Shown here in pieces: positions 14,242 to 36,637 of a stretch of DNA of 64,000 nucleotides. Where the stretch lies: assembly GCA_026392515.1 (NCBI GenBank), contig JAPLBY010000011.1, positions 62,001 through 126,000 on the forward strand. Direction: 5' to 3'. The position numbers were made by a program, and so were the translations under genes. Source of the stretch: Actinomycetota bacterium. GTDB lineage: Bacteria; Actinomycetota; Actinomycetes; S36-B12; UBA5976. The notes under the pieces are model-generated. The model ran no database searches and was not told the DNA's origin. It saw only the letters and a list, made by a program, of their open reading frames with translations. Within the stretch, counting starts at the first letter, position 1, and each line of letters begins with the position of its first letter.

Positions 14242-14298
14242 GGTCTTGCCTTTCGTTTGAGCAGCTACACGTGGTGTGTAACTGGTCTTGCCTTTACG

Positions 14299-14372
14299 TA
14301 CCGAGGGCCGGACTTGAACCGGCGACACAGCGATTATGAGCCGCTTGCTCTACCAAGCTGAGCTACCCCGGC
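14299..14372 (-). tRNA. tRNA-Met(CAT), elongator type
   Basis: 74 nt without encoded CCA. The acceptor arm starts GCCGGGG, the D-arm is GCTC...GAGC, the anticodon arm is AGCGG-CTCATAA-TCGCT with anticodon CAT, and the T-arm is GCCGG-TTCAAGT-CCGGC. It lacks the initiator hallmarks, so elongator tRNA-Met; a lysidine-modified tRNA-Ile cannot be excluded by eye. Confidence 0.93.
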
Positions 14373-14400
14373 TTAAAACCGTGCGTAAACACGGTCTTCG

Positions 14401-14472
14401 AGCCCCCTGTCAGAATCGAACTGACGACCTCTTCCTTACCAAGGAAGTGCGCTACCACTGTGCCAAGGGGGC
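14401..14472 (-). tRNA. tRNA-Thr(GGT)
   Basis: 72 nt. The acceptor GCCCCCT pairs with AGGGGGC; the anticodon arm is CTTCC-TTGGTAA-GGAAG with anticodon GGT; the T-arm is GTCAG-TTCGATT-CTGAC. It lies 28 nt upstream of tRNA-Met in the same orientation. The 187 nt between it and the next plus-strand gene hold no other gene I can see. Confidence 0.95.
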
Positions 14473-14659
14473 CAGTCTTTTCTTCTAGAAACGCATTTCT
14501 GCGCCCCGTTAGCGTATCGAATACCTGCCGTTACAGGGAAATTGAGCCCAACTGGCTTAAGGATCGTCCGTTTCGAGGGGCTAACTGCTAAATCTTGGCA
14601 CTCCGAATATCCGCATGAATACTACGATTATTAAAACCTTAGGAAATCGGGAGAATCAC

Positions 14660-15175
14660 ATGGCAACATCAGCGGAAAATTTGAGCGTCTCAGTGCAAGA
14701 CCAAGACGACCAGCTGGGCATTTTGCAGCGCCGCCGGATCGAGGCAAACATCATTTCTCCGATTTACCAGATCATGAAGCGTGAGTTAGGCCAGGAACGA
14801 GCATCCGACATTATTCGGGAAGCAATTACCGAAGATGCACACAAGGCTGGCGCTCGATTTGCTGCAAGTGAACCAAATGGCGCGAACCTATTAACATTCA
14901 TTGCCATCCAAGACCTTTGGAAAAAGGATGACGCACTAGTAACCGATGTAATTGAAGAGTCCGAAGAGGTTTATACCTACGAAGTAAAGCGCTGTGCTTA
15001 TGCCGAGATGTATCAAGAAATGGGCTTGGCTGAAATTGGAAACTTGCTTTCATGCACCCGCGATTTTGAATTCATAGTTGGTTACGATCCAACCATTGAG
15101 ATCACTCGCACCAAAACCATCATGGGTGGCGATTCGCATTGCGATTTCCATTACGTGCGCAAAGCTCAGGCATGA
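14660..15175 (+). CDS. L-2-amino-thiazoline-4-carboxylate hydrolase family protein
   Basis: 171 aa. The C-terminal half (CAYAEMYQEMGLAEIGNLLSC, then FEFIVGYDP, TRTKTIMGG and CDFHY) is a strong match to the ATC hydrolase family (PF14196). The characterised Pseudomonas member opens L-2-amino-thiazoline-4-carboxylate to N-carbamoyl-L-cysteine; most family members are uncharacterised. The start at 14660 is preferred over an earlier in-frame ATG at 14615 because GGGAG lies upstream at good spacing. Its stop overlaps the start of an M20 amidohydrolase (ATGA), so the pair probably acts sequentially: ring opening, then removal of a carbamoyl group. Confidence 0.82.
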   Translation: MATSAENLSVSVQDQDDQLGILQRRRIEANIISPIYQIMKRELGQERASDIIREAITEDAHKAGARFAASEPNGANLLTFIAIQDLWKKDDALVTDVIEESEEVYTYEVKRCAYAEMYQEMGLAEIGNLLSCTRDFEFIVGYDPTIEITRTKTIMGGDSHCDFHYVRKAQA

Positions 15176-16404
15176 CAACTCCCCTGATTAATTCAGCTCG
15201 ACTTTGGAAATCTCTGGATGAAATTTCTGTCTACGGTGCAACACCGGCCGGCGGCCTACATCGTTTAGCAGCATCCAAGGAAGATGGTCAGGCGCGCGAT
15301 TACGTAGTTGCAGCGGCTGGCGAACTTGGTTGCACAATTCGTATCGATGCACTGGGAAATACTTTTATGCGCCGGGCGGGAACTGATTCCAGTGCAAAGA
15401 CAATTCTGATTGGTTCACATTTAGATTCCCAGCCACTTGGCGGAAAGTATGACGGCATCTATGGCGTGATGGCTGGCTTGGAATTACTTCGAGTGCTGCA
15501 CGAATCCAAAACCGAAACTAAGCATGCAATCGAAGTAGCAGTTTGGACGAATGAAGAAGGCGCTCGCTTCGCCCCAGCCATGATGGGTGCAGCCTATTTC
15601 GCTGGTAAGTTCACCGCCGAAGAACTTTTGGTTAGAAAAGATGTTGACGGAGTCCAACTTGGAAAGTCGCTAACTGAAATTGGATACGCCGGAACTGACG
15701 AAGTCTCTCCAGTTGAGCATCAAGCATATTTCGAGATTCACATTGAGCAAGGTCCGATTCTACAAGATGAGAACCTTCAAATTGGCGTCGTCACTTTAGT
15801 GCAAGGTATGCGTTGGTTTCGAGTTGGCATCACAGGCCAAGCAGGTCACACCGGAACTTATCCAATGGAGACTCGCCGCGATGCCCTAGTTGCAGCTTCA
15901 CACTTAATTAAGGCAGTCCAGCAGATTGGTTTGGATCAACCACTTACTGGCCGAGCGACCGTTGGGCACATAGTCGTCACTCCTAACTCCCCTAACGTGA
16001 TTCCGGGGCATGTCGAGTTGATGGTGGAATTCCGAAATCCTGAAGTTACAGTCCTGGATGTGATGACTGCTTCGCTTAATCAAGCTTTGAAAGAAACCGC
16101 TGATAAGTATGGTGTTGAAGTAGAAAGCCAGCAGGAACTTGATTCAGCAACCATAAACTTCACGCAGGAACTTGTTGACCTCGTTGAACAAGCCGCCGCT
16201 TCCTGTGGCAAGACTTCAAAGCGCATGATTTCAGGTGCCGGCCACGATGCCTGCCAGCTTTCCGCAGTCATGCCAACCACCATGATTTTCATTCCATGCG
16301 ACAAAGGAATTAGTCACGCCGAGAACGAGGCAATTACCCAAGAATGGGCAGCTGATGGTGCCCAAGTTCTAGTTGAGACAGTTCTGGCCTTCGACTTGAA
16401 GTAA
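15172..16404 (+). CDS. M20-family Zn-dependent amidohydrolase (N-carbamoyl-L-amino acid hydrolase / allantoate amidohydrolase type)
   Basis: 410 aa. Metal-site motifs are SHLDSQPLGGKYDG, TNEEGARFAPAMMG, HIEQGPILQ and GAGHDACQ, in the order seen in allantoate amidohydrolases, beta-ureidopropionases and N-carbamoyl-L-amino acid hydrolases. These enzymes split ureido groups to ammonia, CO2 and an amine. The exact substrate cannot be read, but translational coupling to an ATC-hydrolase-type protein makes N-carbamoyl-L-cysteine or a similar carbamoyl amino acid the leading candidate. The start at 15172 overlaps the preceding stop by 4 nt. Confidence 0.88.
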   Translation: MTTPLINSARLWKSLDEISVYGATPAGGLHRLAASKEDGQARDYVVAAAGELGCTIRIDALGNTFMRRAGTDSSAKTILIGSHLDSQPLGGKYDGIYGVMAGLELLRVLHESKTETKHAIEVAVWTNEEGARFAPAMMGAAYFAGKFTAEELLVRKDVDGVQLGKSLTEIGYAGTDEVSPVEHQAYFEIHIEQGPILQDENLQIGVVTLVQGMRWFRVGITGQAGHTGTYPMETRRDALVAASHLIKAVQQIGLDQPLTGRATVGHIVVTPNSPNVIPGHVELMVEFRNPEVTVLDVMTASLNQALKETADKYGVEVESQQELDSATINFTQELVDLVEQAAASCGKTSKRMISGAGHDACQLSAVMPTTMIFIPCDKGISHAENEAITQEWAADGAQVLVETVLAFDLK

Positions 16405-16416
16405 GTCGGGGAATAA

Positions 16417-16453
16417 AGAAAGCGCCAGTCCCCGTCGGAACCTGGCGCTTTCT
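16417..16453. terminator. Hairpin terminator between the M20 gene and tRNA-Tyr
   Basis: AGAAAGCGCCAG (16417-16428) and CTGGCGCTTTCT (16442-16453), a 12-bp perfect stem with a 13-nt loop. It serves convergent transcripts: the amidohydrolase on plus and tRNA-Tyr on minus. Confidence 0.8.
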
Positions 16454-16455
16454 GG

Positions 16456-16536
16456 TGGCAGATAGTGGGTTCGAACCACTGTAGCTTTCGCGACGGATTT
16501 ACAGTCCGCTCCCATTGGCCGCTCGGGCAATCTGCC
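16456..16536 (-). tRNA. tRNA-Tyr(GTA)
   Basis: 81 nt, class II tRNA with a long variable arm. The acceptor GGCAGAT pairs with ATCTGCC, the anticodon loop CTGTAAA carries GTA, and the T-loop TTCGAAC is standard. No CCA is encoded. Confidence 0.94.
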
Positions 16537-16604: not shown

Positions 16605-17828
16605 TTAAAACGAGTCCATAATGTGTCGATTACCACGGTCAAAGGTTAAATAGTTCCACGTCCAGTCGGCCATTGTGCCAATCTTGTTTCGACCACCAAG
16701 GATGTAAAATAGGTGCAACCAGAGCCAAGCCAGCCATGCAATCGGTCCAGAAATTCGAATGCCTTTAACTTCAACAATTGCTTTGTGGCGACCAATAGTT
16801 GCCATTGAGCCTTTGTCTTTGTATTTGAAATTCTCTAATGGTTTTGCTGCAGCTAACGCTTGAATTTGCTTGGCAAGGAATCGCCCTTGCTGCATTGCAA
16901 CTGGTGCAACCATCGGCAATGGGGTGCCGTTAGCACCTACGGCACCAGCGATATCTCCAATTGCCCAAACGTTCTCATAACCGGTTACCTGCAAAGTGCT
17001 CTCAACATCAATTCGACCTCTAGTAACTGGCAGATGCAGAAGATTCATGGCAGGAACACCCTTAACACCGGCTGCCCAAATAGTTGTATTTGCTTGGATC
17101 GTATTTCCATCAAGGGTAAGGATTGAATCTGGCAATACTTCTTTTACAGAAGTGTTTGTAAGAACTGTTACACCAAGTTTTTCTAAATCTTTTTGAGTCT
17201 TGTTAGAAAGTGATTCCGAGAATGAAGGAACTAATCTTGGGCCAGCTTCAATAATGGAAACCCGAACTCGATTTGCCGCATCGGCATAATCAGAATGAAG
17301 TGGTCCTCTAACCAGTTCTGCGAAGGCTCCTGCCATCTCAACACCAGTGGGACCGCCGCCGACAATTGCAATATCGAGGTTATCTTTGTTTCCTTGCCGG
17401 CACATGTCTTCATATGAACGCATAACTTCAGATCGAATCGTTAATGCTTCGCCGACTGTCTTCATTCCTAAGGCATTTTCTTTAACGCCTGGAATTCCAA
17501 AATCCGAAGTTGTTGATCCAAGAGCAATAACTAGGTGGTCATACTTAACAACTTGGCCATCAGTCAAAGTTAACTCGCTGGCTGCAGCATTTAACTTTTC
17601 TGGAGTTCCCATGCGGAACTGAACATTTGTTTTGCGTAATGCGCCACGAATTGGATAAGCAACATGGTCTGCGGCAAGGCCTGCAGTTGAGACTTGATAA
17701 AGCAGCGGCAAGAAAGTTTGAAAGTTGTGACGATCAATCAAAACAACTTCAGCTTGTTTGGAAAGCGCGCGGGCTGCAGTCAGTCCACCGAAACCGGCGC
17801 CAAGTATTACAACTTTTGGCATTGCCAT
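16605..17828 (-). CDS. ndh: Type II NADH dehydrogenase (NDH-2)
   Basis: 407 aa single-subunit, non-proton-pumping NADH:quinone oxidoreductase. An N-terminal FAD motif (VVILGAGFGGLTAARAL), a second Rossmann motif for NADH (IAIVGGGPTGVEMAGAFAEL), the FAD-contact VWAIGDIAG and a C-terminal amphipathic/hydrophobic segment (PIAWLAWLWLHLFYILGG) for membrane association are all present. It would donate to menaquinone made by the men genes in this window and bypass the nuo complex. GAGG precedes the ATG at 17828. It lies 35 bp after the SDR operon in the same direction. Confidence 0.93.
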   Translation of the reverse strand: MAMPKVVILGAGFGGLTAARALSKQAEVVLIDRHNFQTFLPLLYQVSTAGLAADHVAYPIRGALRKTNVQFRMGTPEKLNAAASELTLTDGQVVKYDHLVIALGSTTSDFGIPGVKENALGMKTVGEALTIRSEVMRSYEDMCRQGNKDNLDIAIVGGGPTGVEMAGAFAELVRGPLHSDYADAANRVRVSIIEAGPRLVPSFSESLSNKTQKDLEKLGVTVLTNTSVKEVLPDSILTLDGNTIQANTTIWAAGVKGVPAMNLLHLPVTRGRIDVESTLQVTGYENVWAIGDIAGAVGANGTPLPMVAPVAMQQGRFLAKQIQALAAAKPLENFKYKDKGSMATIGRHKAIVEVKGIRISGPIAWLAWLWLHLFYILGGRNKIGTMADWTWNYLTFDRGNRHIMDSF

Positions 17829-17863
17829 ACTGGCCTCAATTCCTTATGTCTAGCAGGACAAGA

Positions 17864-18649
17864 CTAGTCCCCAAAGCCAGGTCGCGGCACAGAACTCATT
17901 AGGGTCTGGCTAAATCCACCGTCTGCGACAAGGTCGGCGCCCGTTATATATCGAGCCCGATCGCTAGCTAAGAAGGTAACTACATCTGCAATGTCATCTG
18001 GTTTAGCCACTCGACCAACTGGCACCGCAGCATCACGGCGCTGGGCAACATCGCCCACTTGGTAGTAAGCCTCGGTCATAGGCGTGCGAACTAAACCTGG
18101 GCTAACCGTGTTACTTCGAACGCCTTGTGGTCCGAGTTCAAAAGCTAGTTGCTTAGACATAATGACAACGCCTGCTTTACTCACGCTGTATGCGCCACTC
18201 GATCCCTGCGGATTTGTGCTAGATATTGATGCCACATGGATCATTGCGCCATTTCCAGAAGCGACTAGCGCAGGCGTAAAGCTTCGAGCCATTAAGAAAT
18301 AACCGGTCAGATTAACTTTTAATAAGTCGTTCCATTCAACTGTCGTTAAATCGGCAAGCGCACCTGGTCGGACTAAACCAGCGGCATTAACCAAGATGTC
18401 ACAATTTTTGATTGAGGCTGCAACCGAAGTTACTTCATCTTCTTTTGTCACATCACAGACAAACCCTGTTGCGCTGCCACCGCTTGCTTTAATTTCAGCG
18501 ACAGTTGCATCAACTAATTCGCCTGCTCTGTCTAGGACATTGCAGTGCACGCCATTGGTGGATAGCTCGAGTGCTATCGCTTTGCCAATTCCGCCTCCCG
18601 CACCCGTAACTACAGCTGCGCGACCCGAAAGCCCTAACCAGTCACTCAT
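17864..18649 (-). CDS. Short-chain dehydrogenase/reductase (classical SDR)
   Basis: 261 aa. TGAGGGIGKAIA cofactor motif near residues 16-27, NAAGLV, and a catalytic set S...Y-S-V-S-K (SGAYSVSKAG). Last gene of a four-gene operon whose members overlap by 4 nt each (SDR, GntR regulator, flavin monooxygenase, SDR). Substrate unknown; the context suggests oxidation or reduction of an alcohol/ketone before or after the monooxygenase. Confidence 0.88.
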   Translation of the reverse strand: MSDWLGLSGRAAVVTGAGGGIGKAIALELSTNGVHCNVLDRAGELVDATVAEIKASGGSATGFVCDVTKEDEVTSVAASIKNCDILVNAAGLVRPGALADLTTVEWNDLLKVNLTGYFLMARSFTPALVASGNGAMIHVASISSTNPQGSSGAYSVSKAGVVIMSKQLAFELGPQGVRSNTVSPGLVRTPMTEAYYQVGDVAQRRDAAVPVGRVAKPDDIADVVTFLASDRARYITGADLVADGGFSQTLMSSVPRPGFGD

Positions 18650-19932
18650 GACGAAATTGTTTCTGGCTTAACTTCCGACATGATGCTTAATGCAGTTTTT
18701 GTGTGCTCAACTTGATCAAGCCAAATTGGTCGCAAAATATCAATACGCCATTCTTTTTCTTGAAGCTTTTCAAGCGGTCCAGCAATGCTTCGGTATCCAC
18801 CTGCTTGTTCGTGCAGGCGAACCATTTCAAGTGCAATCTTTGCCTGAATCAAATAGATGGGTGGCTGTGGTCCGCGCGCACCAATCATGCCGATCAAATA
18901 AAACTTCTCTAGACCAGTAGGCACGATTGCCGCTCCAACGCGAAGTGGAACGCCTTCTTGTCTTTCTAGATATTCTTCGGACAAGAATGGCAGTGAAGCA
19001 TGGAAGCCAGTTGCATACAAAATGGTGTCGTATTCTTTCGACGTGCCATCGCTGAAGTGAACAGTCTTACCTTCGAATCTTTCGATACCTGGCTTAACTG
19101 CGATGCGGCCGTGATGAATCCAATAAAGCAGTAGCTGGTTAACCACAGGTGGACCATCCGCCAAAGTGCGATGATCCGGTGCTGGCATACCTGGATAGTT
19201 CTCATGGGTACCAACTGATAACCGAATCATTAATCGAGCAATTAGATCTTGCTCTTCGAAAGTGAATTCCTGCATCCAACCAAGCTCAGCGCGTGGCACA
19301 CCAAAAAAGGTTTTTGGTTGGAAGAAATGTCCACGACGGATCACGATGTCGGTTTCAAAATGATTTTGAGCTGCATCAACTGCTAAGTCACAGCCTGAGT
19401 TACCAGATCCGATAACCAGCACTCGGGTACCGTCAATATCTTTAGTGTTTGTGTAACTTCCGGAGTGAATTGTCTTGCCAGTAAATTCACCTGTAAATTC
19501 CGGACGCTTTTCATCCCACAAGTGACCGTTGGCTACGAATACGCCATCGTAATTATCGGTCTTGCCATCACTGGTAGTTACGCTCCAACCAGCTGATCCG
19601 GTTGGTCCATCTGTTGGTAGTGGCTCTACCCGATCAACCGAAACGCCAAAGGTTACATACTTCTTTAGGTCGAACTCTTCAGCAAAGTCTTCGAAGTACT
19701 TCAGCATAAGCTTGCGACTTGGGAAGATCGGCCAATCTTCTGGCATTGGATGTCCGTCATAACCAGTTACTTTGCTCGAAGTAATCAGGTGCAATGCTTC
19801 ATAGTCGGTATTCCAGTGTCCACCAACGGCCTGAGTGCGCTCAAAGCAATCAAATTCAAGGCCGGCATCAACCAAAGTTTTCATCGATGCCAAGCCGGCT
19901 GGGCCGGCACCAATCACACAGTACTTACTCAT
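18646..19932 (-). CDS. Flavin-containing monooxygenase (class B, FMO-like)
   Basis: 428 aa. FAD motif VIGAGPAGLASM (6-17), the FMO signature F-x-G-x3-H-x3-Y (FTGKTIHSGSY) and the NADPH motif VIGSGNSGCDLA are in order. FMO-like enzymes oxygenate soft nucleophiles (N or S) or insert oxygen into ketones; which applies here cannot be told. The length suits bacterial FMOs. It is translationally coupled to a GntR regulator upstream and an SDR downstream. Confidence 0.9.
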   Translation of the reverse strand: MSKYCVIGAGPAGLASMKTLVDAGLEFDCFERTQAVGGHWNTDYEALHLITSSKVTGYDGHPMPEDWPIFPSRKLMLKYFEDFAEEFDLKKYVTFGVSVDRVEPLPTDGPTGSAGWSVTTSDGKTDNYDGVFVANGHLWDEKRPEFTGEFTGKTIHSGSYTNTKDIDGTRVLVIGSGNSGCDLAVDAAQNHFETDIVIRRGHFFQPKTFFGVPRAELGWMQEFTFEEQDLIARLMIRLSVGTHENYPGMPAPDHRTLADGPPVVNQLLLYWIHHGRIAVKPGIERFEGKTVHFSDGTSKEYDTILYATGFHASLPFLSEEYLERQEGVPLRVGAAIVPTGLEKFYLIGMIGARGPQPPIYLIQAKIALEMVRLHEQAGGYRSIAGPLEKLQEKEWRIDILRPIWLDQVEHTKTALSIMSEVKPETISS

Positions 19933-20660
19933 CGCACATTCTCCATTTCGAATAAGTTATTCATTAAAGGTCTTTCGAATAGTTCATTAACTTCAACTTC
20001 ACTAAACGGCTTCATAAACTCCCGAACTGAGGTTTGAATATGGCCATTCCAGATTTCAATCGCTTGGCTGGCGTTTCCTACTTTTATTGCCTTGAGCAAC
20101 TTTTCATGTCTTGAAATCAACGCTTTATGATCTGAGTCGTCGTATTTAATTCCCAAGAATCGCACAAAGACACCAATGTCTACTGCAGTCTGCTCAAACA
20201 TTTCGGTAATCCGGGGCAGGGCGCCCAACGCAATTAGAGCTGACTGAAAATCTAAATCGAGTGAAATCATACGATTTGCATTTCCGCCCACAGCAGTCCG
20301 CATTGCTTCCAATTTCTTGGTGACTTTTCCCAGATCCAGTTCGGATTCCAAACTCAATTGAGATGCATGCGTTACCGCGATCGAACCCATTGACATTCGC
20401 ATCGCATAAACCTCAAGTACGTCATCAAAATTCGGCGCCGAAACGATGGCACCGCGATTTTTTCGATGCTCCACTAAACCTTCAGTTGCCAAAATTCTTA
20501 TAGCTTCGCGAATTGGACCACGCGAAGTTTTGAAAGATTCTGATAGCTCTTGTTCGATTAACCGATCTCCAGGGTGAAGTTTGCCCACCAGAATCGCATC
20601 TCGGATTTGTTCAGCAAGGAGCTCTGCTGTGCTCTGGCTTTCTAAGGCTTGAAATGTCAT
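19929..20660 (-). CDS. GntR/FadR-family transcriptional regulator
   Basis: 243 aa. A winged HTH (about residues 12-75: AEQIRDAILVGKLHPGDRLIEQELSE then TSRGPIREAIRIL) is followed by an all-helical FCD-type ligand domain. These proteins usually repress catabolic genes and release DNA on binding a small acid. Encoded inside the SDR-FMO-SDR operon with 4-nt overlaps on both sides, it is most likely the local autoregulated repressor; candidate sites lie at 21371-21399. Confidence 0.9.
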   Translation of the reverse strand: MTFQALESQSTAELLAEQIRDAILVGKLHPGDRLIEQELSESFKTSRGPIREAIRILATEGLVEHRKNRGAIVSAPNFDDVLEVYAMRMSMGSIAVTHASQLSLESELDLGKVTKKLEAMRTAVGGNANRMISLDLDFQSALIALGALPRITEMFEQTAVDIGVFVRFLGIKYDDSDHKALISRHEKLLKAIKVGNASQAIEIWNGHIQTSVREFMKPFSEVEVNELFERPLMNNLFEMENVR

Positions 20661-21358
20661 CTCATTACATCCGCGCCAGAAATCACGATGGTTTCTCCAT
20701 CTACGAACCCAGCTTTAGTTGGATCGGAAAGCAACCACACCCACTCAGCAATTTCTGATGGCTGAGCTACGCGACCAACTGGAATTGATTTTGCAGCCTC
20801 TTCCATACGACCTGTTGCGGCATTGCCTGGTGTAGCTACCCAGCCAGGTGCGATTCCGTTAACGCGAATACCTTTTGGTGCCAGTTCAAGTGCAAGAGAT
20901 TTAGTGATCATGATGACTGCTGACTTTGAAGCGCCATATAGAAGTTGGCCGCGCGAAACTGTAAAACCATCAACCGATGCGAAATTAACTACTGCAGATC
21001 CAGGTTTCATGTGAGGAACACAGGCTGCAGTGACATTCAAGACCCCCAGCACATTTACATCAAAAATGAAGCGGAAGTTTTCTTCAGTAAATGTTTCAAG
21101 TGTTGTTGGTGGAAAAACACCCGCAACGTTTGCCACTGCATCGATGTTCCCACCAGCAGCTTTAATGGCTGAAGCTAAAGCGGTTTCGAGTGATTCTCGG
21201 TTTCGCACATCGGCCTTAACCCAATGCAAGTTTGCAGATTCAATTCCAGGGTTATCGGAAACATCGACGGCGATCACTTGCCAGTCCCGCTCGAGGTACA
21301 GCTCAGCGGTAGCTCGACCCATTCCACTGCCAGTACCTGTTATCACTGCAGTTCCCAT
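20657..21358 (-). CDS. Short-chain dehydrogenase/reductase (classical SDR), first gene of the FMO operon
   Basis: 233 aa. TGTGSGMGRATAE motif (8-20), NVAGVFPP, and the catalytic YGASKSAV. AGGAG sits 7 nt before the ATG at 21358. Its 3' end overlaps the GntR gene by 4 nt. The substrate is unknown. Confidence 0.88.
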   Translation of the reverse strand: MGTAVITGTGSGMGRATAELYLERDWQVIAVDVSDNPGIESANLHWVKADVRNRESLETALASAIKAAGGNIDAVANVAGVFPPTTLETFTEENFRFIFDVNVLGVLNVTAACVPHMKPGSAVVNFASVDGFTVSRGQLLYGASKSAVIMITKSLALELAPKGIRVNGIAPGWVATPGNAATGRMEEAAKSIPVGRVAQPSEIAEWVWLLSDPTKAGFVDGETIVISGADVMR

Positions 21359-22016: not shown

Positions 22017-22412
22017 TTATTTCTTTCGCCGGCCACTTGGTGGTTCGTCTATTTGTGGTGCCACTGACCCATCACTTCGTCTTGCACTAGGAAGCGATGC
22101 AGCTAGCGCCTCAATTCCATAAATCAGTTCGCCACGGCCTTGGCCAGCTGGCATTGGTGAGTCTGACCAGAACAGCGCATCAAATGGGCAAACGTCGATG
22201 CAAATACCGCACCACATACATTGACCAAAATCAATTGTGAACTGATCCAAAACATTCTTCGTTGCTTGTCTCCGGGAATTGCTATATGCCGGCGCATCTG
22301 GATCAGGTTCAGTGTGAGCTTGTACTGTGATGCACCAGTCTGGACATTCTCGAACACACAGCATGCAAGAAGTACATGAAGATGGATGTAACGCAATCGT
22401 TGAATGGTTCAT
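22017..22412 (-). CDS. NuoI-like 2x[4Fe-4S] ferredoxin subunit (second copy)
   Basis: 131 aa from the ATG at 22410-22412, which overlaps the previous stop by 4 nt. Two clusters: C13, C16, C19, C23 and C65, C68, C71, C75, equivalent to N6a/N6b of complex I. The tail is acidic then basic with no recognisable domain. The canonical nuoI is at 31239-31787. This copy ends a mini-operon with NuoB- and NuoC-like proteins, suggesting an electron-transfer module separate from the full complex. Confidence 0.85.
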   Translation of the reverse strand: MNHSTIALHPSSCTSCMLCVRECPDWCITVQAHTEPDPDAPAYSNSRRQATKNVLDQFTIDFGQCMWCGICIDVCPFDALFWSDSPMPAGQGRGELIYGIEALAASLPSARRSDGSVAPQIDEPPSGRRKK

Positions 22413-22858
22413 GATTTCCACTCCGGTAATACTCCTGGCGGAAGGGATGGTCGGCGCTTGGCATTTTCATCAGGTTCAACGGCTCCGGGCCATTCCGCTC
22501 CAGCTCTGGTAGCAAGCGCAAAATCTCGGCGAAGCGGATGACCAGAGAGTTCAATTTCAAAAGCTGGGGACTCGTCATTGTTTCCGTTGAACTTTACGCC
22601 AAACATTTGAGAAACTTCGCGTTCATGAAAACTAACGTTTGGAAAAACATCCACAAGTGAGTCAATCGCGGCATCAACATCTGTACTCAGAATTGTGCTC
22701 TCCGATAAGTCTTCCTTTGAAAGCATTAGCGAGATTTCGAAAGCATCTCCCCCATTGTGAGTTGCCGTTAACCACTCACATCTAACAAAACCACTTTGCT
22801 TTAGTTCAGCTGCTTCGCTTTGCCAATCAGAGTTTTCTACGATTTGAATTTGCGTCAT
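22409..22858 (-). CDS. NuoC-like subunit (second copy)
   Basis: 149 aa. The 30-kDa-subunit signature is clear in its second half: FHEREVSQMFGVKF and GHPLRRDF. It is shorter than the main NuoC (231 aa) and lacks an obvious NuoD partner nearby. It overlaps both neighbours by 4 nt. Confidence 0.82.
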   Translation of the reverse strand: MTQIQIVENSDWQSEAAELKQSGFVRCEWLTATHNGGDAFEISLMLSKEDLSESTILSTDVDAAIDSLVDVFPNVSFHEREVSQMFGVKFNGNNDESPAFEIELSGHPLRRDFALATRAGAEWPGAVEPDENAKRRPSLPPGVLPEWKS

Positions 22859-25249: not shown

Positions 25250-26818
25250 CTAGCGAATGAACAATCCTGCATTGATTACCAAATCAAGTACTGGTTGTGG
25301 AGCGATTCCGAGTAACAAGGTGAATGCTGCACTGGTGCCAATGGCTACTGTCGTGAATGCACTTGGCACAACGACGCTTGGTCCATCAACTGGAGGTTCG
25401 GTAAAGAACATAAGGACTATGACTCGGGCGTAGAAGAACGCTGCGATTGCGCTGGCAACTACCGCAACTATTACTAGCGGAGTTGCGCCGCCATCAATAG
25501 CTGCTGTGAACACTGCGAACTTTCCAGTGAAGCCACTTGTCAGCGGGATACCAGCTAAAGCCAATAGGAATAGCGCAAAAATACTTGCCATCCACGGAGA
25601 TTTCTTACCAAGCCCAGCCCATTGCGACAAGTGTGTTGCTTCACCGGAAGCGTCACGCACTAATCCAACGATTGCAAAGACACCAACTGATGTGAAGCCG
25701 TAAGCGAGTAAGTAGAACAAAGTGCTAGAAAGTCCAGCAGCGCTTGTTGAAATTACGCCAAGCAAAATGAAGCCAGTATGTGCAACGGAAGAGAATGCCA
25801 GCATGCGCTTCATGTCAGTTTGAGTCACCGCAAGCAATGAACCAATAACCATTGAAAGGATCGCGATTACCCACATCATTGGGCGCCAATCCCAGCGCAT
25901 TCCACCGAAGGCTACGTAGAAGACGCGAAGCAATGCACCAAACGCGGCAACCTTAGTTGCTGCACTCATGAATGCAGTAAGTGGAGTTGGCGAACCTTGG
26001 TAAACATCTGGAACCCACTGGTGGAACGGTACCGCTCCAACCTTAAAGAGCAATCCAACTGCGATCATTCCAATACCTGGAATGATCAAACCATCTTGTG
26101 ATGAGTTCTCCATTGCTACGGCAACAGTGCTGAAGCTAATTGAAGTTGTCGCAGCATAAATTAGTGCGGCGCCGAATAGGAAAAATGCGCTGGAGAATGC
26201 GCCAAGAATGAAGTACTTGAGTGCTGCTTCGTGACTTAGAAGTCGGCGGCGGCGAGCCATACTGGCCATCAAGTAAAGCGGCAACGAGAAAACTTCTAGT
26301 GCTACGAACATAGTCAGGAAATCATTTGAAACTGGGAACAGCAGCATTCCACCAACACAGAATAAATACAGTGGCCAGATTTCAGTTTGTAGCCATCCTT
26401 GCGCGGTGAACTGTCGTTCATCTTCGCTACCAGGAAGTGTGGATGAGCGAGATGCAAAAGCATCTCCTTGCGGATCAATTTGTCGTTCTGCAAGCAGTAA
26501 TGCAGCTACAAATGAAACCAGCAGGATAATTCCCTGAAGCACCATGCCAGGACCATCAATTGCAACTGCGCCACTTGCTGCCAACTGACGCAATCCCTTT
26601 ACTTGGCCACCGTTGGTTACCGGATCGCCAGCAAGTGGCGCAGTGGCATTGATAACGACATAAGCAAATGCCAACACAATGCTGGCTAGCACCAACATAA
26701 GTTGGATCGGACGACGTAATGTGCGAGGAATAAATGCTTCAACCAGGACAGATAGAACTCCAGATGCAAGCAAGATAATGATTGGAGCTAGCGCTTGATA
26801 CTCAACAGAGACCTTCAT
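25250..26818 (-). CDS. nuoN: NADH-quinone oxidoreductase subunit N
   Basis: 522 aa antiporter-like proton-translocating membrane subunit with about 14 helices; KVGAVPFHQWVPDVYQGSPTPLTAFMSAATKVAAFGALLR contains the helix-7/8 lysines and the broken-helix region. Last nuo gene; its start overlaps the nuoM stop by 4 nt. Confidence 0.96.
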   Translation of the reverse strand: MKVSVEYQALAPIIILLASGVLSVLVEAFIPRTLRRPIQLMLVLASIVLAFAYVVINATAPLAGDPVTNGGQVKGLRQLAASGAVAIDGPGMVLQGIILLVSFVAALLLAERQIDPQGDAFASRSSTLPGSEDERQFTAQGWLQTEIWPLYLFCVGGMLLFPVSNDFLTMFVALEVFSLPLYLMASMARRRRLLSHEAALKYFILGAFSSAFFLFGAALIYAATTSISFSTVAVAMENSSQDGLIIPGIGMIAVGLLFKVGAVPFHQWVPDVYQGSPTPLTAFMSAATKVAAFGALLRVFYVAFGGMRWDWRPMMWVIAILSMVIGSLLAVTQTDMKRMLAFSSVAHTGFILLGVISTSAAGLSSTLFYLLAYGFTSVGVFAIVGLVRDASGEATHLSQWAGLGKKSPWMASIFALFLLALAGIPLTSGFTGKFAVFTAAIDGGATPLVIVAVVASAIAAFFYARVIVLMFFTEPPVDGPSVVVPSAFTTVAIGTSAAFTLLLGIAPQPVLDLVINAGLFIR

Positions 26819-28341
26819 GAGCCACTCCCTTCAATTACAACTGTGGCTTCTGGATCAGTTACACCCACATATGTTTGAACTTGTTCAACGGCCGGGTTAA
26901 TGACGTTAAGAGCAACCTGCGGTACGAAGCCTAAAGCAATAATTATTGCTATCAGCGGTGCAACAGCAACTAGTTCGCGTCTTGAGATCTCGGTAATGCT
27001 CTCTTCGACTTCCTTACTTGGAACTCCAGTCATCATTCTTTGGTAGAGCCAAAGGATGTAAACGGCTGCTAAGACAATTCCGAAGGTCGCAATGATCGCT
27101 GCTGTTGGATTAACTGCATATGCACCCGTCAGTACTAAGAATTCTGAGACGAAGGTAGACATGCCAGGAAGTGCAAGTCCTGAAAGTCCTGAAAGCAGGA
27201 ATACGCCAGCAAGAATTGGTGCAACCTTTTGGACGCCACCAAAGTCTGCAATTCGCTTTGAGCCGCGACGCGATACCAGGTAGCCCATGACTAAGAACAA
27301 CGCACCAGTGGAGAAACCGTGGTTGACCATGTAGAACGAAGATCCACTTAGTCCCTGTGAAGTCATCACAAAGATGCCTAAAACGATGAAGCCAAAGTGC
27401 GAGATCGAAGTAAATGCCACAAGACGCATCACATCTGTTTGTCCAATGGCCAAAAGTGCGCCGTAGAAAATACTGATTACAGCAAGCGTGATGATTGCCG
27501 GAGCATAAAACTTACTCGCTTCTGGGAAAATCGGAAGCAAGAAGTGCAGCATGGCAAAAGTTCCAACCTTATCGAGCACGCCAACTAGCAAAGTTGATGT
27601 TGCTGGTGTTGCTTCAGCTGCCGCATCTGGCAGCCAGGTATGGAAAGGCACCATAGGCGCCTTTACTGCGAAGGCAAAGAAGAATCCAAGAAAAAGCATT
27701 TTCTGCGTTGCTGGATCAATGTTTAAAGTCGTTAGAGTTTGGAAATCGAAAGTTCCCTGCCCAAGTTGACGGCTTGATACAACATAAAGGCCAATTAGCG
27801 CAGCCAGCATGAATAAGCCACCGACAAGTGAATACAGCAAGAATTTCATTGCCGCATAAGCACGTTGCGGGCCACCAAATCTTCCAATTAAAAAGTAGAT
27901 CGGAAACAGCATTGCTTCGAAGAAGACATAAAAGAGAAATAAATCATTAGCGGCAAATACGCCAATGATGAAAACTTCTAAGACAAGAATTAAGGAAAAG
28001 TAGCCCTTAACCGATCCCTGACTTGCATTTTCAGCATCCCACCAGCCAGCAATGATTGCTATCGGTACCAAAATTGCAGACATCACAATAAGTGAAGCTG
28101 AGATTCCATTCACGCCCAGAGTCCAAGAGATTCCAAAAGCTGGAATCCAATCGTAGGACTCAACGTGCTGCAGTCCCCCAGATGAATTATCTAGGCCAAG
28201 CACCATAAGAACGGACCCAACCAAAGTGGCGAGCGCAAAACCTAAGGCAATTTGCTTAGCTAAAGTCGCTTTCGCAGCTGGAAGCAAGAAAACAACAATC
28301 GACCCAACTAGTGGGATCAGCATCAAAGTCGTTAGCAACAT
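26815..28341 (-). CDS. nuoM: NADH-quinone oxidoreductase subunit M
   Basis: 508 aa antiporter-like subunit. FFEAMLFPIYFLIGRFGG carries the TM5 glutamate and AVKAPMVPFHTWLPDAAAEATPATSTLLVGVLDKVGTF the TM7/TM8 lysines of the proton channel. It starts 2 nt after the nuoL stop. Confidence 0.97.
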   Translation of the reverse strand: MLLTTLMLIPLVGSIVVFLLPAAKATLAKQIALGFALATLVGSVLMVLGLDNSSGGLQHVESYDWIPAFGISWTLGVNGISASLIVMSAILVPIAIIAGWWDAENASQGSVKGYFSLILVLEVFIIGVFAANDLFLFYVFFEAMLFPIYFLIGRFGGPQRAYAAMKFLLYSLVGGLFMLAALIGLYVVSSRQLGQGTFDFQTLTTLNIDPATQKMLFLGFFFAFAVKAPMVPFHTWLPDAAAEATPATSTLLVGVLDKVGTFAMLHFLLPIFPEASKFYAPAIITLAVISIFYGALLAIGQTDVMRLVAFTSISHFGFIVLGIFVMTSQGLSGSSFYMVNHGFSTGALFLVMGYLVSRRGSKRIADFGGVQKVAPILAGVFLLSGLSGLALPGMSTFVSEFLVLTGAYAVNPTAAIIATFGIVLAAVYILWLYQRMMTGVPSKEVEESITEISRRELVAVAPLIAIIIALGFVPQVALNVINPAVEQVQTYVGVTDPEATVVIEGSGS

Positions 28342-28343
28342 GA

Positions 28344-30203
28344 TTAAAGCCTCACTAGTAGAAGTATGAGCGCAATCAAAACTGCGCCACCGAGCATAGT
28401 TACTGCATAAGAACGTGCGTAACCATTCTGAAGTCGTTGAGCTCGAGCCGATAGGCCACCAATCGAAGCAGCAAGACCGCTTACTAAGCCATCAATCGCT
28501 TTGGAATCAAACCAGGTAAGTGAACGAGTCAAATACTGGCCAGGGCGCATGAACGCGGCTTCGTTTAGCGCATCGCCGTAAGCATCTGCTCTGGCCGCGC
28601 GAGTTAGGAAGCGAACATCTGTTGGTGCCACAACCGGAACTGGACGGCGACCGTATCGCAACCAAGCGAATAGCGCGCCACCAAGGACAACGGCAAGTGT
28701 GATTGGAATCAAAACTGAATGTGAAACTGAATGTTCTGGTTTCGCAAATCCAGTCACAGGCTCTAGCCAGTGCTCGATGTCACCAACAAACAGCATCGCC
28801 ATACCACCAAAGACTGAACCCAGTGCTAACACAATCATTGGGATTGTCATTACGGCTGGAGACTCGTGCGGATGAACGTCGTCTTCCCAGCGAGCTTCAC
28901 CAAAGAATGTCATGGCCATCATGCGTGTCATGTAGAAGGCAGTAACACCAGCACCAAGCAAAGTTGCCAGACCAATTATCAAACTTTGGCTAAAGGCCAC
29001 ATAAATGATTTCATCTTTCGACCAGAATCCGGCAAAAGGCGGTACGCCAATAATCGCCAAGAAACCAAGACCAAATGTTGCGTACGTAATCTTCATCATG
29101 ATGCGCAGTGCGCCGTAGTGACGCATGTTCACATCGTCATGCATGCCATGCATAACTGATCCCGCACCAAGGAATAGTCCAGCCTTAAACATGCCGTGAG
29201 TAAGTAAGTGGAAGATTGCAAAGACATAGCCAACTGGGCCAAGTCCAGCAGCTAGAACCATGTAACCGATTTGGCTCATAGTCGAACCTGCTAGACCCTT
29301 CTTAATGTCATCTTTTGCAGTTCCGATGAATGCACCAAGTAGCAAGGTAATTGCACCGACAATTACTACTGCGGTTCGGGCAGTTTCGGAGAGATCAAAA
29401 ATGGCATGAGCTCTGACAATTAAATAGACACCGGCGGTAACCATAGTTGCCGCGTGAATCAGCGCGGAAACTGGAGTTGGACCCTCCATCGCATCAAGTA
29501 ACCAAGATTGCAGTGGGAACTGCGCACTCTTTCCACAGGCAGCCAAAAGTAACGCCAAGCCGATCCAAGTAATCGTGGATGGAGATCCTGATTCGGCCGC
29601 CGCATTAACGCCCTCAAAAGTTACGGTTCCAAATGTTACGAACATGAGAATGATCGCGAGTGACAGACCTACGTCACCAACGCGGTTTACGATAAACGCT
29701 TTCTTGCCAGCAGTAGCTGCACTTGGCTTTTGTTGGTAGAAGCTGATCAATAGGTAAGAGGCAAGGCCAACACCTTCCCAGCCCACGTAAAGCAAGAAAT
29801 AGTTGTCAGCAAGAACCAAAAGCAACATTGCTGCTACGAACAAATTCAAGTAAGCAAAGAAGCGACGGCGATTTGGGTCGTGCTCCATGTACCCAATCGA
29901 GTAAATGTGAATCAAAGTTCCAACGCCGGTGATCAAAAGCACGAACACGATCGACAACTGATCTAGGTGTAAGCCAAATGGAATTTGAAAGGCCCCAACC
30001 GCGATCCAATCGAATAAGTGTTGTCCGACTTCACGTTCTTCTTCTGACTTGCCAACCATTTGAATGAACAAGAATGCGCCAAGCAGGAATGAACCAGCAG
30101 ACATTGCAACAGCTAAGAAATGTCCCCAGGCGTTGGTTCGACGGCCCCCGAGCAAGAGCACTGTGGCGCCAACTAATGGCAGACCAATAAGAGCGGCAAT
30201 CAT
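28344..30203 (-). CDS. nuoL: NADH-quinone oxidoreductase subunit L
   Basis: 619 aa, the largest antiporter-like subunit. [16 protein letters not shown] contains the TM5 glutamate; [40 protein letters not shown] gives the TM7/TM8 lysine and histidines. The extended C-terminus forms the lateral helix along the membrane arm. Confidence 0.97.
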
Positions 30204-30214
30204 GTTCAGTTCCT

Positions 30215-30514
30215 TTAGTACTTCATCAGACTTGCTTCGTCGATCGAGGCTGATCGACGAGTTCGGAAAATTGTCACGATAATTGCAAGTCCAACTACAA
30301 CTTCAGCTGCTGCAACAACCATTACAAAGAAAGCAACTACGAGTCCATCAAGTGTTCCGGTATTGCGGGCTGCGGCAACGAAAGCAAGATTTGCAGCGTT
30401 GAGCATTAGTTCAACGCTCATGAAAACGATGATCGCATTTCTGCGAACCAGCACACCATAAACTCCGATGGTAAAGAGAATGGCAGCAAGAATTAAGTAG
30501 TTATTTGGATTCAC
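30215..30514 (-). CDS. nuoK: NADH-quinone oxidoreductase subunit K
   Basis: 99 aa, three transmembrane helices. [17 protein letters not shown] contains the conserved membrane glutamate. It overlaps nuoJ by 4 nt. Confidence 0.96.
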
Positions 30515-31239
30515 TTGCCTGCCTCCTCAATTGAGTTCGGCTTGGCAACTTTGCCTTCACCGCGGAATGCATTTGGAAGGGAATCAATTGAAGTTGATCC
30601 GTCAGGCAACAATGCTGGGGTATCAACCGAGTTGTTTCTGGCCATTACACCTGGTGCTGGCAGCGGAGTTACGTGGTTACCCATAGTGCGTTCGCGCTGC
30701 AATTGATCCTGAGTCTTTCGAGGTGCCCATCGTTCGTTGTGAGCAAGAACCATTGCGCCAAGTGCTGCCGTAATAAGTAGTGCCGACAAAACTTCAAATG
30801 CAAATAGGTATTGTCCAAACACCAAATAAGCAATAGCTTTCAAGTGGCCACCATAGCCAGCATTAGCAATTGCTAGTCCTGCTGAAGGTGAGGCGAGCGT
30901 GCTGGCAATGGATGCCACAACCACACCACCAAAAGTTAAAGCAAACAACGCAGCTAGCAGTCTTTGACCTTTGATAGTTTCCAAAAGTGAATCAGATGAA
31001 TCCACACCAACAATCATCAGTACGAAAAGGAACAGCATCATGACTGCACCGGTGTAAACGATGATCTGGGTGGTTCCTAGGAATGGTGCTTCAAGTGTGA
31101 AGTAAAGAACTGCAATGTTAATCATTGCAAAGGCAACCCAAAGTGCACTGTGCACGGCTTTCTTGGAAACAACCATGCCAAGTGCACCAACAACAGCGAA
31201 CGTACCCGAGACCCAAAAAACTACGCTCTCACCATTCAC
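30511..31239 (-). CDS. nuoJ: NADH-quinone oxidoreductase subunit J
   Basis: 242 aa; five hydrophobic segments including the conserved [24 protein letters not shown] (TM3 with the pi-bulge). The C-terminal 70 residues are hydrophilic and proline-rich, an actinobacterial extension compared with the shorter E. coli subunit. The start overlaps the nuoI stop by 1 nt. Confidence 0.95.
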
Positions 31240-31787
31240 TATTCGTCACCTACTTTTACGGCACTTGGTGTTGGGCTGCTGCCAACTTTGCCTTCGTAGT
31301 AATCGATTGCAGTTGTACCTGGAGCCATGTCGTGAGGTGGAAGTTCCATTCCAGCCAAAAGCGGGGCAAGTAGATCTTCTTTTGTGAAAATCAGTTTCTC
31401 GCGACTGTCATCGGCTAATTCATATTCATTTGTCATGGTTAGCGCTCTAGTTGGGCATGCCTCAATGCATAAACCACAAAGAATGCAGCGTAAGTAATTG
31501 ATTTGATAAGTCCGGCCGTAACGCTCTCCTGGTGAGAAACGTTCTTCTTCAGTGTTGTCCGCACCTTCAACATAAATGGCGTCTGCCGGGCAAGCCCAAG
31601 CACACAACTCACAGCCAATGCATTTTTCTAAACCGTCTGGATGTCGGTTTAGCTGGTGACGACCATGGAAGCGAGGCTTTGGTGGATACTTATCCTTCTC
31701 TTCCGGGTACTGCTCTGTTGTCACCTTCTTGAACATCGATAAGAAAGTGACTCCGAATCCACGGATAACTTGTGGAACTTTAGACAT
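31239..31787 (-). CDS. nuoI: NADH-quinone oxidoreductase subunit I
   Basis: 182 aa, two [4Fe-4S] clusters: [12 protein letters not shown] and [12 protein letters not shown] (N6a, N6b). Passes electrons to NuoB. It overlaps nuoH by 8 nt. Compare the shorter second copy at 22017-22412. Confidence 0.97.
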
Positions 31788-33123
31788 TGGTGCCCTCCGT
31801 GGTTTCCGTTACGACCTGAGATGCAACGGAACCGCTTGAAATCGTTACCTTTGCGTGGCGTGATGGCTGAGCAACTTGACCTGGCATTGGTGGCACCGGG
31901 AATCCGCCAGCAAAAGGATCGAAGTCTTGCTCGGCTTCTAACGCAGCTCGTTGCTCTTCAACTTCGTCAGATTTCTTGCGTCGTAAATCAAGTGTGTATG
32001 AAATCAAAACAATCAGGATTAGCACTGCACTTGCCGCAAACAGCAAGTTACGTGACTCTAAGCCACCGGTGTTGCGCAAGTAGCGAGCGATTGCAACGAT
32101 CAAGATCCAAGCAATCGATACTGGAATCAAAACTTTCCAACCAAACTTCATGAATTGGTCATAACGCAAGCGAGGTAGCGTTCCGCGTAGCCAGATGAAT
32201 ACGAAGATGAATGCAAAAACCTTGCCGAAGAACCAAAGCATTGGCCACCAACCGACATTGGCTTGATCCCATAGCGAGATTGGCCACGGTGCGCGCCAAC
32301 CGCCAAGGAACAAAGTCGTGGCAAGTGCCGAAACAGTAACCATGTTTACGTACTCAGCCAAGAAGAACAATGCGAACTTTAGAGATGAATATTCAGTATG
32401 GAAGCCACCAACAAGTTCGCCTTCAGCTTCTGGCAAGTCAAATGGTGCACGGTTAGTTTCGCCAACCATTGCAGTTGTGTAGATGATGAAAGACGGAAGT
32501 AGTAGCACGATGTACCACATTGGCTCTTGCGCTGCGACAATCTGCGAAGTCGACATTGACTCGGCATAAAGGAATACCGCAACAAAGGAAAGTCCCATTG
32601 CAATTTCGTAGCTGATCATCTGGGCTGAAGAACGAAGTCCGCCAAGTAGCGGGTAGATCGAGCCTGAAGACCAACCAGCAAGCACGGTTCCGTAAATTCC
32701 AACGGATGCAATTGCCAATACATATAGAACAGAAACTGGGAAGTCGGTCAGTTGAAGCGGAGTCACTGTGCCAAAAATCGAAACTTCAGGACCCAGTGGG
32801 ATTACGGCAAATGTTAAGAATGCTGTGGTGGCTGCGATAACTGGCGCTATTACATAAACCGCTAAGTGTGCACCCTTTGGAATGATTTCTTCCTTAAGGG
32901 CTAACTTAATTCCGTCCATCAATGACTGAAGTAAACCAAATGGTCCGACTCGGTTTGGCCCGATACGCATTTGCATGCGGCCAACAACACGACGCTCTGC
33001 CCAAATAGTAAGCAGAGTCATGACGACCATGATTACGAAAATTCCTAGAACCTTTACCGCAATAACTGCAGCTGGATCATTTCCAAAGATACTTAGATCA
33101 CCTTGAGCTTGGGAGCGAAACAT
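31780..33123 (-). CDS. nuoH: NADH-quinone oxidoreductase subunit H
   Basis: 447 aa membrane subunit forming the quinone entry site. [35 protein letters not shown] and the FFLAEYVNM loop are canonical. A hydrophilic C-terminal extension of about 70 residues is typical of Actinobacteria. The TAATG overlap with nuoG couples the two. Confidence 0.97.
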
Positions 33124-35339: not shown

Positions 35340-36637
35340 CGAGTCGCTCCTGCAAATACTGTGGCGGCTACTGGATCAAAGCTTTCGTTAGCTGGCGTAT
35401 TTGTCGCTTGCACAAATTCATCGCGGAAGTACTTAAGTGCTGCTGGGAATGGTGTTGCGGCAGCATCACCAAGAGCGCAGAAGGAACGGCCAGCAATCTG
35501 TGAGCAAATGTCGATCAACTTATCTAGATCAGATTCGGTGCCATGACCATCTTCGAATCGATGGAGAACATCACTTAACCACCAAGTGCCTTCCCGACAT
35601 GGTGTGCACTTGCCACATGATTCGTGCTTGTAGAAAGCCAACCATCCAGTAACGGCGCGAACCACAGAAGTTGTGTCATCGAAAATCATTGGAGTTCCAG
35701 TGCCAAGCATGGAACCAGCTGCAGCAATGTCTTCGTAAGTTAACGGAGTATCAAGTAAATCTGGAGTCAGCATTGGAACTGATGATCCGCCTGGTAACCA
35801 GAACTTAACTTTGTGACCGTCGCGAACTCCCCCAGCATGCTCAAGAAGCTCACGCATGGTGATTCCAAGTGGAGCTTCGTAAATTCCTGGACGATTTACG
35901 TGACCAGAAACTGCGAACAACTTGAAGCCTGGTGACTTTTCAGTTCCAAATGACTTGAACCAATCAACACCGTTGTTAACGATGTATGGAATGTTTGCAA
36001 TTGTCTCAACGTTATTTACGCAAGATGGTGAAGCATAAAGTCCAGCGACTGCAGGAAACGGTGGCTTCAAACGTGGCTGACCGCGACGACCTTCAAGGGA
36101 ATCCAGTAGCGCAGTTTCTTCACCACAAATGTAGGCACCGGCACCAGCGTGCAAAACAACTTCAAGATCAAATCCAGATCCCATGATGTTCTTACCAAGG
36201 TATCCCGCAGCATAAGCTTCGCGAATCGCGTTATTAACCCGACGGAAAACGTGTGGAACTTCGCCACGAATGTAAATGAATGCGTGGTTAGCGCGCATTG
36301 CGTATGAAGCAATGATGATGCCTTCGATTAATGAATGCGGGTTAGCCATCATTAATGGAATGTCTTTGCAAGCACCTGGTTCAGACTCATCGGCGTTGAT
36401 AACTAAGTAATGCGGTTTGCCATCGCCTTGTGGAACAAAGCTCCACTTAAGGCCAGTTGGGAATCCAGCACCACCACGACCACGTAGGCCTGAATCTTTA
36501 ACCATCGAAATGATGTCATCTGGGCCAGTTGCGAACGCCTTCTTGAATGCGGTGTAACCGCCGTGGCGCATGTAGCCCGTAATTTTGTAGGAATCAACTT
36601 CATCCCAATGTGCACTGAGTACCGGAGTTAATGTCAT
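35336..36637 (-). CDS. nuoF: NADH-quinone oxidoreductase subunit F
   Basis: 433 aa NADH- and FMN-binding subunit. GRGGAGFPTGLKW forms the NADH site, GAGAYICGEETALLDSLEG binds FMN, and ESCGKCTPCREGTWW ligates N3. It overlaps nuoG and nuoE by 4 nt each. Confidence 0.98.
   Translation of the reverse strand: MTLTPVLSAHWDEVDSYKITGYMRHGGYTAFKKAFATGPDDIISMVKDSGLRGRGGAGFPTGLKWSFVPQGDGKPHYLVINADESEPGACKDIPLMMANPHSLIEGIIIASYAMRANHAFIYIRGEVPHVFRRVNNAIREAYAAGYLGKNIMGSGFDLEVVLHAGAGAYICGEETALLDSLEGRRGQPRLKPPFPAVAGLYASPSCVNNVETIANIPYIVNNGVDWFKSFGTEKSPGFKLFAVSGHVNRPGIYEAPLGITMRELLEHAGGVRDGHKVKFWLPGGSSVPMLTPDLLDTPLTYEDIAAAGSMLGTGTPMIFDDTTSVVRAVTGWLAFYKHESCGKCTPCREGTWWLSDVLHRFEDGHGTESDLDKLIDICSQIAGRSFCALGDAAATPFPAALKYFRDEFVQATNTPANESFDPVAATVFAGATR

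Follow-up and report, generated by a model that had tools for sequence, protein, structure and literature searches.

The window, by which we mean the entire 64,000-nucleotide stretch of DNA analysed, is part of contig 35 of a 1.69 Mb genome (94% complete) of a Candidatus Nanopelagicales member. It contains two plus-strand genes, ORF A and ORF B, with minus-strand tRNA genes on both sides (Table 1); therefore, ORF A and ORF B form a free-standing two-gene unit. The gene pair and its families are confirmed, and both family calls of a preliminary description made from the sequence hold, with the PF14196 match of ORF A and the M20 matches of ORF B above their cut-offs. Because a relative in genome G028 (L033 7271-7786) lacks the extension and because GGGAG precedes position 14660, we rejected the upstream in-frame ATG at 14615 as the start of ORF A. 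As read directly, the ATG of ORF B (15172-15174) overlaps the TGA of ORF A (15173-15175). The preliminary description had the two genes fused translationally at this ATGA; the overlap is there but the fusion is not, and a single fused protein was rejected in favor of separate, overlapping ORFs that are probably coupled.

Table 1 Features of the ORF A/ORF B locus, in window coordinates
Feature	Position	Strand	Basis
tRNA-Met, upstream flank of operon	14298-14372	-	ARAGORN
tRNA-Thr, nearest upstream neighbour	14400-14472	-	ARAGORN
GGGAG, likely ribosome-binding site of ORF A	14649-14653	+	Sequence reading
ORF A, atcB-like gene, ATC hydrolase family, 171 aa	14660-15175	+	PF14196 match; first of pair
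Cys112 codon, first of three invariant Cys of ORF A, probable metal site	14993-14995	+	40/40 aligned sequences; 20/20 in wider set
Cys132 codon, second invariant Cys of ORF A, LLSC motif	15053-15055	+	Same alignments as Cys112
Cys161 codon, third invariant Cys of ORF A, CDF motif	15140-15142	+	Same alignments as Cys112
ATGA, overlap of ORF A stop and ORF B start	15172-15175	+	Sequence reading
ORF B, M20 N-carbamoyl-amino-acid hydrolase, 410 aa	15172-16404	+	Peptidase_M20 + M20_dimer (Pfam), TIGR01879, NF006769
Arg288 codon of ORF B, counterpart of Rhizobium Arg291	16033-16035	+	R in 38/38 ATC-linked M20s
tRNA-Tyr, nearest downstream neighbour	16453-16536	-	ARAGORN

Five Nanopelagicales junctions were read (G000, G024, G028, G029, and G034), and those of G024 and G034 are gaps of 3 nt and 2 nt, respectively. 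ORF A is 96% identical in the same-genus genome G029. Within the genus, purifying selection on ORF A and ORF B is strong, with dN/dS at most 0.058 wherever it is defined and dS mostly saturated. The GC content of ORF A (0.476), ORF B (0.494), and the window (0.481) gives no support to the idea, which we discarded, that the operon is a recent foreign island. In a set of 394 genomes from the class, strong matches were confined to this genus (4 genomes) and three other matches were weak or partial, the actinomycete JB111 perhaps lying outside this sample. No racemase or transporter gene adjoins ORF A/ORF B within the window. Downstream, the minus strand carries at 16605-21358 a series of NDH-2-like, SDR, flavin-monooxygenase-like, GntR-type regulator, and second SDR genes (named by eye), which also adjoins the operon in G022, G028, and G029 and looks like a separate catabolic cluster. 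Further on, NuoB-, NuoC-, and ferredoxin/NuoI-like genes (also named by eye) lie at 22017-22858 and on to ~23240 (cf. L036 2917-4138), apart from the complex I operon at 25250-39846; in G037 and G038, this set adjoins 2-oxoacid:ferredoxin-oxidoreductase-like genes.

ORF A matches the PF14196 (ATC_hydrolase) profile over its entire length (positions 1-145 of 145) with an E-value of 1.6e-37 and 130 bits against a cut-off of 28.1. An alignment of 40 sequences has 41 invariant columns; Cys112, Cys132, and Cys161 are invariant in all 40, and a three-cysteine cluster is common to V4R domains. A sequence search for a solved structure of ORF A returned none, and an AlphaFold2 model was built from the 40-row alignment (pLDDT 86.7). 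The PDB folds closest to this model are the V4R domains of MopR, PoxR, and DmpR, followed by Bet3 and H-NOX (Foldseek E 1e-5 to ~4e-3; VIA Z 6 to 9.2). The Z values for H-NOX, V4R, and Bet3 are middling for VIA; they indicate a common arrangement and not a function. In PMC5847659, V4R and heme-NO-binding domains had already been connected with PF14196, as had a three-cysteine cluster, and PMC7264223 describes the zinc of DmpR as bound by three cysteines and one glutamate. Because three cysteines of ORF A are invariant, their cluster is likely a metal site, and we infer that it may have a catalytic role. Thus, the model shares its fold, at a moderate level of match, and its three-cysteine cluster with the V4R/H-NOX/Bet3 proteins, including the sensors MopR, DmpR, and PoxR; however, those proteins are sensors or trafficking factors whereas the family of ORF A is one of enzymes.

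ORF B contains Peptidase_M20 and M20_dimer domains (Pfam) and scores 392 bits against TIGR01879 (hydantoinase/carbamoylase; cut-off 204), 518 bits against NF006769 (titled allantoate amidohydrolase; cut-off 452), and 254 bits against TIGR03176 (AllC, allantoate deiminase), the last being below the equivalog cut-off of 597.75. NF006769 also covers the ATC-linked M20s of Burkholderia, Pseudomonas, Serratia, Sinorhizobium, Neisseriaceae, and an Apibacter MAG, as well as three M20s from loci where a nearby PF14196 gene was not found; the M20 of JB111 is slightly below its cut-off. Because NF006769 spans ATC-linked M20s, its allantoate title is without weight. Naming ORF B an allantoate amidohydrolase by this NCBIfam title was, therefore, rejected as uninformative, the model being non-discriminating and the AllC cut-off missed. 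The conserved active-site residues of ORF B are H83, D94, E128, E129, H190, Q193, R288, and H382. Glu128, Gln193, Arg288, and His382 correspond to Glu131, Gln196, Arg291, and His385 of the Rhizobium N-carbamoyl-beta-alanine enzyme, their equivalents are invariant in 38 of the 38 linked M20s, and all carbamoyl- and carboxylate-binding residues named for 8c46 are retained. According to PMC10952681, Arg291 of the Rhizobium N-carbamoyl-beta-alanine amidohydrolase binds the carboxylate and 8c46 accepts many linear N-carbamoyl-L-amino acids. This set of residues fits a substrate that bears both a carbamoyl and a carboxylate group, e.g. N-carbamoyl-cysteine, without singling it out. ORF B is of the same fold family as the M20 carbamoylases 8c46, 8apz, and 3n5f and shares their metal ligands and the residues that bind the substrate; however, in the M20 tree, which was calculated without 3n5f, 8c46 and 8apz belong to a different clade.

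In a scan of genome contigs with ORF A, 573 relatives were confirmed, and neighbourhoods were counted in the best 80 of them. Directly downstream of the PF14196 gene, an M20 of the ORF B class is present in 77 of these best 80 of 573 loci; the three partner-less loci, of which one is at a contig end, are all from Nanopelagicales, and with the six Nanopelagicales loci removed the partner is present in 74/74 of the best-80 set. Because the loci were picked by ORF A alone, this frequency together with the purifying selection indicates that the pairing exceeds chance. The best-80 loci span Actinomycetota, Pseudomonadota, and one Bacteroidota MAG (Apibacter); they are mostly from Pseudomonas, Burkholderia/Paraburkholderia, Serratia, and Enterobacteriaceae, with JB111 and Neisseriaceae in addition, and because few genera dominate, the 74 loci are not 74 independent cases. 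Based on script-chosen starts, the junctions of the 77 pairs are overlaps of 4 nt (38 pairs), 8 nt (35), and 11 nt (2) and gaps of 2 nt and 3 nt (one each). Among the best 80 of 573 loci, a divergent LysR-like gene precedes the pair in 69 and an ABC substrate-binding protein gene does so in 66, both clusters being named from annotated relatives. In the gamma- and betaproteobacterial loci, the pair ends a LysR plus ABC-transporter operon, i.e. a catabolic uptake operon.

Farther afield, 84 plasmid records match ORF A, all at <60% identity. The Sinorhizobium and Shinella pairs inspected have a 4-nt overlap; one Sinorhizobium pair has a gene of the arylmalonate decarboxylase/Asp-Glu racemase family directly upstream, and the Shinella pair has a PLP (cysteine-synthase-like) gene downstream. 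The partners of more distant PF14196 proteins (~44% identity) are M20s of a different class and FAD oxidoreductases and, because of these other partners, the family is not bound to one substrate. We note that two Azospirillum loci (L022 3660-4172 and L023 3697-4206) contain a second "ATC hydrolase" that is 18-19% identical to ORF A in the alignment and adjoins the same ABC transporter; this annotation takes in very divergent proteins. Also, the record CAMBGF010000062.1 (L047), which matches the Nanopelagicales genome G034, is titled Bifidobacterium breve and is probably a mislabelled MAG.

The parallel with Pseudomonas drawn in the preliminary description is borne out, as the pair is a widely conserved operon present in many Pseudomonas (e.g. 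L053, L054, L069, and L073). Shiba et al. (2002) reportedly attributed one gene to each step, the first encoding L-ATC hydrolase and the second N-carbamoyl-L-cysteine amidohydrolase, and the atcB-atcC genes of Pseudomonas sp. BS and ON-4a are reportedly the subject of that work and of Ohmachi et al. (2004) and Tashima et al. (2006), with reported protein masses of 19.5 and 44.7 kDa. In the window, likewise, a PF14196 gene is followed by an adjacent M20 carbamoylase gene. The proteins of the Pseudomonas genome loci (~18.1-18.8 and 43.8-44.7 kDa) are near the masses reported for atcB-atcC and are ~57% (ORF A) and 48% (ORF B) identical to those of the window. Unlike in Pseudomonas, the window pair has no adjacent ABC transporter or LysR gene, and its host is a streamlined actinobacterium without sulfate-reduction genes. 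Our literature search found no experimental paper on ATC hydrolase; as reviewed in PMC10821248, the demonstrated conversion of DL-ATC to L-cysteine in Pseudomonas follows one pathway via N-carbamoyl-cysteine and another via S-carbamoyl-cysteine.

The ORF B tree has 52 rows, and its unlinked set consists of only 10 rows, several with long branches. In this tree, the nearest relatives of the window protein are other Nanopelagicales, and JB111 joins them next (100/99). Bona fide AllC is on a very distant branch; thus, the firm placement with allantoate amidohydrolases that the preliminary description had named as counting against cysteine salvage is not what we find. A single clade of ATC-linked M20s is rejected (AU p 9.6e-8), also without Aminobacter (4.9e-4, a test picked after the tree was seen), whereas a clade of gamma/beta plus actinobacterial M20s is not (p 0.47). 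The Aminobacter partner lies inside the clade of the characterised N-carbamoyl-beta-alanine/L-carbamoylases 8c46 and 8apz (100/100). Within the limits set by the long branches and the few unlinked rows, the pattern is as if carbamoylases of different clades had repeatedly been recruited or replaced beside one ring-opening enzyme and, if so, this argues that the second step is a decarbamoylation.

In the ORF A tree, one group (93/99) unites the window protein and the other paired Nanopelagicales proteins with JB111 and with four solo copies from Nanopelagicales, and in it the solo copies are sister to the paired ones (90/71). This sister relationship suggests that ORF B may have been lost once, in the solo lineage. 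The solo genomes G030, G037, G038, and G039 (88-95% complete) encode an ORF A homologue with 58-72% identity and genome-wide have no ORF B-like M20 at E 1e-30; in these congeners, step 2 would be done otherwise or the product would differ. In G039, the homologue is at the same tRNA-flanked site as the window operon and heads a stretch (L031 7373-16255) with eight further genes, whose products are a member of the polysaccharide-deacetylase family, SDRs (two), an amino-acid permease, a member of the arginase family, an amidase, a SnoaL-like protein, and an NCS1 permease. Of these, the amidase could be a stand-in for ORF B. In G038, tRNA-Thr adjoins tRNA-Tyr and the ORF A homologue is elsewhere; the tRNA-Thr/tRNA-Tyr site looks like an exchange hotspot. 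As a separate observation, a 3462-aa ORF (L029 1168-11556, minus strand) lies directly upstream of the solo ATC hydrolase gene of G037.

The preliminary description had also called for a check of assimilatory sulfate reduction genes and had taken a need for reduced sulfur as its premise. In profile searches of the host's own genome (94% complete), PF01507 (PAPS/APS reductase) and PF01077 (sulfite reductase) had no match, while control genomes gave PF01507 in 14/14 and PF01077 in 11/14. The premise holds for this organism, and PMC5301498 describes published acI genomes as missing assimilatory sulfate reduction and needing reduced sulfur. However, the absence is genus-wide and not tied to the operon: PF01507 is present in 2/23 and PF01077 in 1/23 genomes, operon or no operon, and because nearly all of the 23 genus genomes are without sulfate-reduction genes, no correlation between this absence and the operon was found. 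The exception G023 has both genes and a partial ORF A homologue at a contig end. Moreover, the own genome has cysteine synthase (one match above cut-off) and, therefore, sulfide or a similar compound could also serve.

Our working hypothesis, which we consider reasonably probable, is that the pair is an atcB-atcC type operon that converts a cyclic isothiourea via N-carbamoyl-cysteine to cysteine. Specifically, ORF A, with its small alpha/beta ligand-binding fold, would hydrolytically open the cyclic isothiourea of L-2-amino-thiazoline-4-carboxylate (L-ATC) or a close analogue to give an N-carbamoyl amino acid, which from L-ATC would be N-carbamoyl-L-cysteine. Subsequently, ORF B, as a dinuclear-metal enzyme with the conserved residues, would hold the carboxylate via Arg288 and use Glu128 as base to remove the carbamoyl group, yielding L-cysteine, CO2, and ammonia; the gene overlap would couple the two enzymes. 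A host without detectable sulfate-to-sulfide genes would thereby gain nitrogen as well as the sulfur of cysteine from an organic compound that is already reduced. By sequence comparison, the two-step mechanism is well supported and L-ATC is the probable exact substrate; the sulfur-salvage role in the host is plausible only. Cysteine salvage as originally proposed is partly supported: the families and the operon conservation speak for it, and the genus-wide absence of sulfate-reduction genes, the cysteine synthase, and the four relatives that keep the ATC hydrolase without the M20 speak against a close tie to sulfur need.

A variant of the same two-step logic is that the substrate is another cyclic compound (an isourea, a guanidine, or a hydantoin- or thiohydantoin-like amino acid) and that the M20 decarbamoylates the product, with no sulfur involved. 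We regard this as somewhat unlikely. We know of no PF14196-family chemistry that has been demonstrated other than on L-ATC, and none of the conserved neighbours in the paired loci hints at a different substrate. On the other hand, the wider PF14196 family has different partners, and the G039 context (arginase-family, amidase, polysaccharide-deacetylase-family, and NCS1 permease genes) resembles nitrogen-rich or cyclic-ureide catabolism. Also, DL-ATC was the supplied substrate in the Pseudomonas work, from which we infer that its natural role is unproven. Breadth among M20 carbamoylases, as for 8c46 in PMC10952681, fits the variant as well; the PF14196 chemistry in PMC5847659 is on L-ATC.

That ORF B is an allantoate amidohydrolase or beta-ureidopropionase of purine/pyrimidine breakdown, with incidental PF14196 adjacency, appears very unlikely: the title of NF006769, which ORF B passes, speaks for it, but that model equally covers M20s that are ATC-linked in Pseudomonas, Serratia, Burkholderia, and other bacteria, AllC is far off in both score (254 vs 598 bits) and tree, and the adjacency in 77 of the best 80 of 573 loci also speaks against it. 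Moreover, with the models searched, no allantoinase, hydantoinase, or dihydropyrimidinase was found above cut-off in the own genome, in which the best amidohydrolase, and sole full-length match to the allantoinase/hydantoinase models, is a dihydroorotase (724.5 bits; cut-off 538). It is more improbable still that the operon serves detoxification rather than nutrition, clearing the cyanide-cystine adduct ATC and recovering cysteine. A cytochrome-bd-type oxidase set (cydAB + DUF2474), a type of oxidase that can be cyanide-tolerant, lies ~6 kb upstream of the Aminobacter pair, in this one case only; however, the conserved neighbours in the best 80 of 573 loci include no gene that we recognised as cyanide-related, and the gamma/betaproteobacterial uptake operon argues for an external nutrient. 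The formation of ATC on cleavage of cystine by cyanide is itself established chemistry, as described in PMC9291117.

Returning to the atcB-atcC type reading, this is a known operon type in an ecologically interesting host, a small freshwater actinobacterium, and, if the reading is true, a dedicated pair of enzymes acting on a cyclic cysteine derivative would offer a testable explanation of where some acI-type actinobacteria obtain reduced sulfur. As the survey shows, this pathway, known chiefly from industrial work with Pseudomonas, is a widespread, often transporter-linked operon of plant- and soil-associated bacteria. To our knowledge, an ATC-type cyclic cysteine adduct has not been considered as a sulfur currency in fresh waters. 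More speculatively, and as a scenario that we hold to be rather doubtful, streamlined freshwater Nanopelagicales without sulfate reduction may draw reduced sulfur and nitrogen from dissolved ATC (cyanide-modified cystine) or a like cyclic cysteine adduct, PF14196 may have recruited M20s of different clades separately, and some congeners may use another second enzyme.

Finally, the PDB entry 4wjb ("putative amidohydrolase/peptidase"), from Burkholderia cenocepacia, has 393 of 416 residues (~94%) in common with the M20 that is ATC-linked in B. cepacia L103. It belongs to the gamma/beta group whereas ORF B belongs to the actinobacterial group. By this identity, 4wjb is probably a solved structure of the AtcC-type enzyme class, and a structure of the second enzyme may, thus, already exist in the PDB under a generic name.
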